This document shows, piece by piece, positions 57,484 to 59,823 of a stretch of 64,000 nt of DNA. Numbering within the stretch: the first letter of the stretch is position 1; the number at the start of each line of letters is the position of its first letter. Both the position numbers and the translations under genes were made by a program. This stretch comes from Deltaproteobacteria bacterium ADurb.Bin207 (GTDB taxonomy: Bacteria; Myxococcota_A; Polyangia; Polyangiales; Polyangiaceae). The notes beneath the pieces were generated by a model, which saw only the letters and a program-made list of their open reading frames with translations, made no database searches and was not told the origin of the DNA. The DNA lies in NCBI GenBank assembly GCA_002070115.1, contig MWCO01000019.1:1-64000 (forward strand). The letters run 5' to 3'.

Positions 57484-58983
57484 CTACATGGTGCCTCTCG
57501 CCAGCGAGTGCTCCTGCATGTCGACGCGCATTAATTCTGTAAGCCATGGAAATATATTACAAATTTCTCGATATAGGGCCTGGGCCACGCGACGATAACT
57601 CGTGTGTCCTTGTCGCGCGCTACGCAACTCGACCACATGAAAGACCTCGCGCAGGTTGAGCGTCCACAACACGCGAGTTCGATAAGCGAGGGGAACGACA
57701 TATTGTGCTTGGAAGGGATCGTGCTGTGCAAGACGTTGCCAGGGGATCTGAACGGCATCGAGGGCGCGAGCGTAATCATCGCCTATGGCCAACGCCGATA
57801 GTTCTTCCGGAGGGGTGTATCCGAGGGAGCAACCCAGCAATTGCGTGCTCGGGGTTAGCATCCGATGTCGTTGCAAGTCGCGATAAGCGCCGTAATCCAA
57901 TTCCAATTCGACAGTGATGCTTGTCGACTCCATGGCTCGAGGGGCGGGATCGTGGGGGCCGCGATGGGCCAAGGCTCGTTTCACCATCGACTCCAAGGCC
58001 GACACTTCCTTGGCCTGAAGCATCTCCCATCGTCTGCCCGCATGAGGTTGCGCCCCTTGGTCGTAATCGAGAGCCAGGACGATCCGCTGCAAAGCATCGG
58101 CATCGTGACGAAGGATGCGTACGGCCACCGGTGAATCGGCAATCTGTGTCGATGGAGCCGTGAGTGGGGTCAGTGTGGGCTGCAACGATTGACGATAAGG
58201 ATTGGGAGCGACATGGCGGAGCAAGGTGGGGGTGACCGTCAACGCCTCTTGTCGCATTTGCTCCGCCACGGAACGTACTTCCGCAAGGGGTGACGAGAGC
58301 ATTTTGCTCAGCAGATTGGACAGCGCTCGTGCGTTGGCGGTGATGCCGAGATTGGTCAGCGTGCTGGCGGGGAGCAAGCCCCGCAATAGATCGCAAGTAT
58401 GCGCGCGCAAGGCTGCCTGTCGATGCGTTCGGCTTGCTTGTGCTTCCGCGGGGAAGAGCCTTTCGAGCTTCGCTTCGACCTTCGGAAACAGTGATAAGTA
58501 CGTGGAAAACAGGTTTTTGCAGGCTGTCCGATAGGGTTCGGCCAGTGGCGATGGCAGAGAGGGTAAGTCGGCAAACGAACCCGTATCGAACACCACGTAC
58601 CGCGTGCTTTTTTCGGTAAACGAACCGAGGCGCAAATCCTCGATGACCTTGGAAGCGATGATGGATACTTGTTCGACGGCTAGATGAACGACGGCATGTT
58701 CAGCGACGGAGGCATGTCCGTAGCCGACCACCCATTTTTCGTGAAAGGCTCGCGCTTTTTCCTGCGCATGGCAGGATACGGGGCTTTGGGATGAGGCAAT
58801 TCCGAGCGTATCGTCGGAGATCAAACGCGCAAGGTTGGTGCGCAAGTCGTCGCGGCTTCGGGAATAGTACGCGAACAGAACGGCAATCACCTCTTCGGGC
58901 AGGCCCGTGATGGCAAAAACGGGTCGTTCGAGGTTGGAAACGAAGGGTTTGATGCGTTGGAAGGAGTCTTCGGAGGTCGTCAT
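57484..58983 (-). CDS. thyX: Double-domain ThyX-like protein, split motif
   Basis: This 499-residue protein is twice the usual ThyX length. Both halves resemble the FAD-dependent thymidylate synthase, but the signature is divided. The N-terminal half has GHASVAEHAVVHL and FTEKSTRY (the SxRY part) without RHR. The C-terminal half has LQRHRMLTPSTQLLG (RHR) without SxRY. ThyX active sites form between subunits, so the two halves could make one composite site. This is either a functional pseudo-dimer or a diverged paralogue. The gene is followed by 42 bases and the methionine aminopeptidase gene on the same strand. Confidence 0.75.
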   Translation of the reverse strand: MTTSEDSFQRIKPFVSNLERPVFAITGLPEEVIAVLFAYYSRSRDDLRTNLARLISDDTLGIASSQSPVSCHAQEKARAFHEKWVVGYGHASVAEHAVVHLAVEQVSIIASKVIEDLRLGSFTEKSTRYVVFDTGSFADLPSLPSPLAEPYRTACKNLFSTYLSLFPKVEAKLERLFPAEAQASRTHRQAALRAHTCDLLRGLLPASTLTNLGITANARALSNLLSKMLSSPLAEVRSVAEQMRQEALTVTPTLLRHVAPNPYRQSLQPTLTPLTAPSTQIADSPVAVRILRHDADALQRIVLALDYDQGAQPHAGRRWEMLQAKEVSALESMVKRALAHRGPHDPAPRAMESTSITVELELDYGAYRDLQRHRMLTPSTQLLGCSLGYTPPEELSALAIGDDYARALDAVQIPWQRLAQHDPFQAQYVVPLAYRTRVLWTLNLREVFHVVELRSARQGHTSYRRVAQALYREICNIFPWLTELMRVDMQEHSLARGTM

Positions 58984-59025: not shown

Positions 59026-59823
59026 TCAGGAAGCGAAAAAATCCGGAAAAATCTCGCTGTGGGTCAACGTTCTGTTTCGTTGCGTCAGGATTTCGCAGCC
59101 GGTTTTGGTGACCGCGATGGTGTGTTCGAATTGGGCGGAAAGGGAGCGGTCGCGGGTTACGGCAGTCCAGTCATCGTCGAGTATCTCTACTTCCCAACCA
59201 CCGAGATTGATCATCGGTTCGATGGTGAACACCATCCCGGCGCGAAGACGTTCTCCTTTTCCCCGCGTACCGAAGTGGTTGACCTGGGGGGGCTCGTGGA
59301 ATTTTCGACCGATACCGTGGCCTACGAACTGACGGACTACCGAGCAGCCTTGGGATTCCGCAAACTCCTGGATGGCGGCTCCCACATCACCAAGCCGAGC
59401 GCCATCGCGAACTTCCGCGATGCCAAGAGCCAAACACCGTCGCGCCACTTCGGTGACGTGTTTGCTTTCCGGAGAAGGCTCACCGATATAAAACGTAGCG
59501 GAGGTGTCTCCGTGAAACCCATTGAAAAACGTGGTGATATCGATGTTGAGGATGTCCCCGGGCTGGAGTTTTTGCGGGCCGGGAATCCCATGGCACACCA
59601 CTTCATTGATGGACGTGCAAACGCTTTTGGGAAAGCCGTGGTAGTTGAGGGGTGAGGGAATCGCGCCTCGACGAATCGTATCCTCATGAACGAACGTGTT
59701 GATTTGTTCGGTGGTCATGCCAGGGCGGAGCAATTCCCCGACTTTGAGCAGCGTATCGGCTGCCATTTGGCAGCTTGTACGGATGGCCTCGATCTCACGA
59801 GGGCTTTTAATATCAATTGCCAT
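59026..59823 (-). CDS. map: Methionine aminopeptidase
   Basis: This 265-residue type I enzyme removes the initiator Met from new proteins. Metal ligands are readable: the Asp pair in LNIDITTFFNGFHGDTS, His in FVGHGIGRKFHE, Glu in FTIEPMI and Glu in QFEHTIAV. Length is standard. It lies on the minus strand between the lipoprotein upstream and the ThyX-like gene downstream. Confidence 0.95.
   Translation of the reverse strand: MAIDIKSPREIEAIRTSCQMAADTLLKVGELLRPGMTTEQINTFVHEDTIRRGAIPSPLNYHGFPKSVCTSINEVVCHGIPGPQKLQPGDILNIDITTFFNGFHGDTSATFYIGEPSPESKHVTEVARRCLALGIAEVRDGARLGDVGAAIQEFAESQGCSVVRQFVGHGIGRKFHEPPQVNHFGTRGKGERLRAGMVFTIEPMINLGGWEVEILDDDWTAVTRDRSLSAQFEHTIAVTKTGCEILTQRNRTLTHSEIFPDFFAS

Follow-up and report, generated by a model that had tools for sequence, protein, structure and literature searches.

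A two-domain ThyX protein with a signature split between its halves as the probable thymidylate synthase of a Polyangiaceae bacterium

Can a protein that holds two ThyX domains, neither of them with a complete ThyX signature, supply a cell with thymidylate, and if so, how would its sites be built? The question is raised by a gene in the window, the whole 64,000-nucleotide stretch analyzed here (contig MWCO01000019.1 of Deltaproteobacteria bacterium ADurb.Bin207). Thymidylate synthase is an essential enzyme, and its ThyX form is a drug target. The ThyX signature, which we take to be RHRxxSxNxxSxR(Y/F), is carried in one domain. In the reading favored here, to which a probability of about 0.8 is given, the two-domain protein (the double) would be the cell's thymidylate synthase, of the ThyX kind, and would act as a homodimer in the form of a pseudo-tetramer that has two sites where ThyX has four. 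The features referred to below are as follows (Mtb, M. tuberculosis; Tm, T. maritima).

57484..58983, minus strand: two-domain ThyX-like gene, an open reading frame (ORF) with an ATG start, 499 aa
58168..58983, minus strand: N half, residues 1-272, Thy1 domain keeping the SxRY, EH histidine, GHxS and NAR residues
57484..58167, minus strand: C half, residues 273-499, Thy1 domain keeping RHR and the late arginine
58696..58719, minus strand: GHASVAEH of the N half, residues 89-96; the serine is the Mtb S71 equivalent and the histidine the Mtb H75/Tm H53 equivalent
58597..58638, minus strand: DLRLGSFTEKSTRY of the N half, residues 116-129; RHR reduced to xxR, SxRY retained
58327..58329, minus strand: R219 of the N half, Mtb R190 equivalent; R in 81/81 aligned doubles
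58300..58302, minus strand: M228 of the N half, at the position of the late dUMP arginine (Mtb R199/Tm R174); arginine lost
57862..57870, minus strand: RHR of the C half, residues 372-374; 81/81 aligned doubles
57649..57651, minus strand: R445 of the C half, Mtb R190 equivalent; 80/81 rows, with a gap in the remaining row
57622..57624, minus strand: R454 of the C half, late dUMP arginine (Mtb R199/Tm R174); 80/81, with a gap in one row
59026..59823, minus strand: upstream neighbor gene, given as context; 42 bases from the double gene, same strand

The neighbor is presumably methionine aminopeptidase-like, and at many Polyangiales loci a similar gene adjoins the double gene.

Two Thy1 domains and a divided signature

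When the whole protein was scanned, PF02511 (Thy1) was the sole Pfam match above the cut-off (E 1.2e-43), and the ThyA family, PF00303, was not matched. Each half also matched Thy1 alone, the N half (residues 1-272) with E 2.3e-24 and 86.7 bits and the C half (residues 273-484) with E 7e-19 and 68.8 bits (cut-off 24.8). The NCBIfam model TIGR02170 thyX was passed by a margin of just 0.2 bits (88.1 against a cut-off of 87.9 bits). Neither domain of the protein carries the canonical signature, with SxRY only in the N half and RHR only in the C half; because neither half has the whole signature, the double was filed as a ThyX variant and not as a canonical ThyX. As a control, the whole RHR-7-SxR(Y/F) pattern was found in one domain in 30 of 30 single-domain ThyX proteins from the same phylum.

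Conservation was followed in an alignment of 81 rows, consisting of the window protein and 80 of 298 confirmed loci (L027 and L033 partial), in which identities go down to 35%. In every row, SxRY or SxRF in the N half lacks an RHR immediately before it, and in the C half RHR is present but the next 25 residues contain no SxR(Y/F). The first-pass annotation, made from the sequence of this stretch, had described a ThyX-like protein with its signature split over two halves; both the two Thy1 domains and the split (81/81) bear this out. Since the split is shared by 81/81 relatives, chance or decay in one sequence is excluded. Because the rows were gathered for their similarity to the window protein, what they show is conservation within one family; a second family of doubles and the doubles of phages and plasmids were chosen independently of the split motif.

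The lack of a full signature in either half alone would also fit an assembly artefact or a decaying pseudogene in which two thyX copies had run together. This explanation carries next to no probability: the frame is single and free of stops in the window, in closed chromosomes and in finished phage and plasmid records, and the residues concerned are invariant across the 81 diverged rows. The conserved frame in independent records refuted it.

Site residues, predicted fold and the proposed working unit

The site of M. tuberculosis ThyX spans three subunits (PMC6514825). In Mtb numbering, the subunit A role is held by RHR 95-97 and R199, the subunit B role by S71 and R190, and the subunit C role by R87, S105, R107 and the lid residue Y108, and the subunit A and C sets both contact the same dUMP and FAD (PMC6514825). 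For T. maritima ThyX, PMC11940539 describes a histidine, H53, that comes from monomer 3 and is held by Y91 and N85. Residue equivalences were assigned by sequence alignment, with the halves just ~15-20% identical to solved ThyX, and the equivalence of Mtb H75 was made via alignment to Tm H53.

In the N half, S92 (Mtb S71), E95, H96 (the EH histidine), S126 (S105) and R128 (R107) were each found in 81/81 rows and Y129 (Y108) in 78/81, with F in the other 3. Arginine was found in 0/81 rows at the R199 position (M in 46, L in 25, W in 7 and F in 3). At the RHR positions of this half, the R95 equivalent is R in 0/81, the H96 equivalent is H in 0/81, and the R97 equivalent (R118) is R in 81/81; the R87 position is R in 42/81 rows and I in the window. 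In the C half, the EH position is H in 32/81 rows and S in the window, and GY or GF is mostly retained near the would-be SxRY end, so that, as judged from the alignment, the loss of residues from this half is not total. The earlier claim that each half lacks the other's motif holds for SxRY and for RHR and has to be amended for R118, the third RHR arginine, which the N half keeps.

Across both halves together, the full site set (RHR, R199, S105, R107, Y108 and H75) is present, and the residues of the subunit B role, S71 and R190, are both in the N half too. Because the map places these residue sets on different subunits and the halves keep these same sets, the halves appear complementary; by alignment, role A is assigned to the C half and the other two roles to the N half. 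Complementary degeneration, as the first-pass annotation had proposed from the two motifs, extends in this way to further residues, with R199, S105, R107 and Y108 also sorting by half on the published map (PMC6514825).

A thymidylate synthase could also have one half that alone holds a full site of another make-up, with its partner serving as a scaffold; the third RHR arginine retained in the N half, and the GY or GF and occasional histidine of the C half, could be read in this way. However, the published map has both residue sets touching the same dUMP and FAD, and across the 81 rows both sets vary little or not at all, which a scaffold would not need. We consider this arrangement improbable.

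Using the 81-row alignment, the full chain was predicted by AlphaFold2 with a pLDDT of 89.5 and a pTM of 0.88, and the C half of the model (residues 284-491) matched T. maritima ThyX 8reo (Z 15.5, rmsd 2.7, 191 residues). The N half was also modeled alone (alignment A2, 39 of the 80 loci; pLDDT 83.2) and matched M. tuberculosis ThyX 2af6 (Z 13.1, rmsd 5.5, 202 residues), with the first non-ThyX row of its fold search lying below this match at Z 5.2. By predicted fold, each half is a ThyX. The mean pLDDT of the SxRY loop block (residues 121-130) was 86 in the full chain (81 rows) and 65 in the N half alone (40 rows); the difference would agree with packing of the loop against the C half but, given the unequal alignment depths, is not taken as evidence.

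The favored reading has two ThyX domains fused head to tail in one chain; two chains would pair, and their four domains would stand in for the subunits of a ThyX tetramer. Within this reading the catalysis, the binding of FAD, the dimer and the site number are inferred. Since three subunits contribute to a ThyX site, symmetry would make a homodimer the working unit. A symmetric tetramer has neighbors of three kinds, A-B, A-C and A-D, and the site of A would use B and C; with a C half at A and N halves at both other positions of that site, D is the other C half, and the rule holds for D too. By this rule a pair of chains would have a complete site at each C half, two in all, and the two sites centered on the N halves, where RHR and the late arginine have been lost, would be dead. 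In each working site a C half would supply the FAD- and dUMP-binding RHR and late arginine. An N half in the subunit C role would add the conserved histidine and the SxRY loop that carries the lid tyrosine, and an N half in the subunit B role the FAD-phosphate serine and arginine. As in ThyX, FAD would carry the methyl from methylene-tetrahydrofolate to dUMP, and tetrahydrofolate would remain. The fused dimer with one type of active site that had been suggested earlier gains support from the complementary sets, with the correction that the working unit would be a homodimer of the fused protein and not one chain.

Canonical ThyX/FDTS (PF02511; T. maritima TM0449, M. tuberculosis ThyX) resembles the double in the fold of both halves, all of its site residues are found between the double's two halves, and the genome here is likewise without ThyA. 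The double differs in having two domains per chain and RHRxxSxNxxSxRY broken in two, and whereas canonical ThyX is a homotetramer with four three-subunit interface sites, two sites per four domains would be expected in the double.

Thymidylate supply in the genome and its relatives

The genome (6.55 Mb, 97% complete) contains one Thy1 locus by genome profile search, and matches to ThyA (PF00303) and to DHFR were both absent from it; it does encode a thymidine kinase. A normal thyX or thyA elsewhere in the genome, which the first-pass annotation had held would mark the protein as a paralogue with another role, was looked for and none was found. At 97% completeness a missed thyA is possible, and with a thymidine kinase dTMP could in principle come from salvage. 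Many ThyX organisms can dispense with DHFR.

For a wider survey, 377 genomes of the same phylum, called Myxococcota after the titles of the nearest named relatives, were searched for Thy1 and ThyA. Strong ThyA matches were found in 3/41 genomes with a window-type double and 0/66 with two second-type Thy1 matches (3/107 for a double of either type), against 151/189 genomes without any Thy1; among genomes with other Thy1 the count was 4/81. Across the 377 genomes, the double replaces ThyA. The 66 second-family genomes are those with two Thy1 matches, of which 28 read as one ORF, and five two-match genomes were scored as single Thy1 owing to an intein (G071, G102), an insert (G310) or matches on separate contigs (G008, G096). 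Weak PF00303 matches (E 1e-7 to 1e-12) in five second-family genomes (G005, G079, G275, G280 and G350) were left out of the ThyA counts; they are perhaps other members of the ThyA superfamily.

Several unusual Thy1 loci were seen along the way. Inteins lie inside canonical single-domain ThyX in L155 (G102; Intein_splicing PF14890 within Thy1, 1.3e-10) and L156 (G071; PF14890 within Thy1, 6.3e-11, plus an HNH domain), both belonging to the window's own family group. L173 (G310) is a Thy1 ORF of 684 aa with its domain split by a ~330-aa insert that has no Pfam intein match, and L175 (G242), from a ThyA-bearing genome, is a 220 aa Thy1 ORF that lacks the RHR..SxRY motif.

A check of named genomes covered 50 of the 80 named loci. 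In 46/50 there was no ThyA match; the remaining 4/50 had one strong (Polyangium sp. 6x1, L011), two partial and one weak match, and their doubles are intact. No Thy1 beyond the double's own was found in 45/50, and extra Thy1 matches, some of them weak or fragments, were found in G389, G394, G409, G412 and G425, with three further Thy1 genes in G389 (L015). The closed chromosomes of Sorangium cellulosum So ceGT47 and So0157-2 and of Minicystis rosea contain neither ThyA nor any Thy1 besides the double.

Motifs were counted in window-type doubles fetched from 30 of the 41 genomes (L113-L142, own genome included), with the N-half SxRY found in 28/30 and the C-half RHR in 29/30. Three of the 30 genomes have ThyA. 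The double of one of them (L141, G373) has lost SxRY and has RTR in place of RHR and C at R199; in another SxRY reads SGRP (L127, G003), and in the third the double is intact (L128, G251). Broken signatures in 2/3 ThyA genomes and 0/27 others give a Fisher p of 0.007, in a post hoc test on small numbers.

These counts bear on a further explanation, that the protein is a paralogue of the Thy1 family with a different task (e.g., nucleotide methylation, like that of PolB on UMP) and that dTMP comes from thymidine kinase salvage. It would account for the thymidine kinase of this genome, for the PolB structures among the fold matches of both halves and for the genomes that carry ThyA and the double together. 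Against it, no other thymidylate synthase was found in this genome or in the chromosomes of the three closed relatives, ThyA is replaced across the 377 genomes, the signature is broken in two of the three ThyA genomes whose doubles were read and in none of the 27 others, and DHFR is missing here. The paralogue explanation is for these reasons held to be quite unlikely. PolB, a UMP/dUMP methylase (PDB 4p5a, 4p5b; PMC5003785), shares the ThyX fold with the double, but is a single chain of ordinary length that reportedly serves polyoxin synthesis, unlike the double. The atypical ThyX of Corynebacterium glutamicum (PDB 3fnn, 3ge9) shares this fold as well; it is a single chain of ordinary length and, per the entry title, is not required for thymidylate synthesis.

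Spread, origin and meaning of the fused form

The titles of the 80 listed loci (of 298 confirmed) include Myxococcota, Methylomirabilota, Acidobacteria, Chloroflexota, Patescibacteria and others; those such as Dependentiae or Armatimonadetes come from MAGs and may be misbinned. A second, divergent family of doubles in the phylum has the identical split, in the same order, in 28/28 ORFs, with H, S, R and Y in the N half and RHR and R199 in the C half each 28/28. Its N half has Thr at the position of the Mtb S71 serine, and the R190 equivalent is absent from both halves (L, A or Q at the C-half position); as far as aligned residues tell, the subunit B role is less clean in this family.

Doubles were also found in phages (Tunturi_5, Vibrio Yong MS32 and Microcystis MaMV-DC) and on plasmids (Miltoncostaea, Euzebya, Parabacteroides, Bacillus and Paenibacillus). 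Their N halves have STRY or SQRY without RHR and their C halves have RHR, so the split is in essence present in 8/8; in the two Bacillota plasmid doubles the C half has RHN in place of RHR. Public annotation of such plasmid doubles is already FAD-dependent thymidylate synthase. In the jumbo phage Tunturi_5 (L184, 426-3018) the gene for the double comes directly after one for dCMP deaminase, and on the Euzebya plasmid dcd is near the double gene.

Whether the two families go back to one fusion or two was addressed with a domain tree (23/81 window-type, 14/28 second-type and 17/31 single-domain rows) and with profile-profile comparison. In the tree, five long-branched groups (the N and C halves of both families, and the singles) form a star, in which N2 groups with C2 without support. 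Constrained trees with the N halves together, or the C halves together, were not rejected and were slightly more likely, and a tree placing N1 with C1 was not rejected either. Profile-profile scores were 85.6 for N1-N2 and 103.2 for C1-C2, against 25-44 for the other eight pairs. That like halves pair across the two families suggests a single fusion, and the domain tree leaves both options.

In the literature searched, which covers few subscription papers, no account of a split ThyX signature was found, and duplicated ThyX was found in one statement (PMC3224940). In the available text of that paper, a domain-duplicated ThyX is the only thymidylate synthase in the Chloroflexi concerned, and the duplicated form is uncharacterized (Valas and Bourne 2009, PMC3224940). 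As in the double, there are two ThyX domains and no ThyA, and Chloroflexota members are present in the 81-row alignment. The same text is silent on a split signature, on Myxococcota and on site formation. The monomeric herpesvirus dUTPase (PMC8961515) is likewise a multi-subunit nucleotide enzyme that gene duplication turned into a longer chain, with a single motif set left. Its fold is unrelated, and it went from homotrimer to monomer, whereas the expected end state of the double is a dimer.

A broader interpretation is put forward as a doubtful but possible one, namely that an obligately asymmetric pseudo-tetramer, derived from an ancient fusion, is a third thymidylate synthase architecture with two catalytic and two dead sites. 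Much of Myxococcota, Chloroflexota and other phyla would rely on it as their only thymidylate synthase; it would also travel in jumbo phages and plasmids, and its vacated pockets would be free for regulation.

If the favored reading is true, a widespread and so far uncharacterized form of ThyX has broken the symmetry of the tetramer, and the family would be a clean example of gene fusion followed by complementary loss. With symmetry broken, each catalytic residue would occur once per site, and a change could be confined to one side. This would open the three-subunit site model and any half-of-sites behavior to direct tests, which is impossible in a homotetramer, and the two lineages that also have ThyA, with the signature broken, would serve as natural controls.
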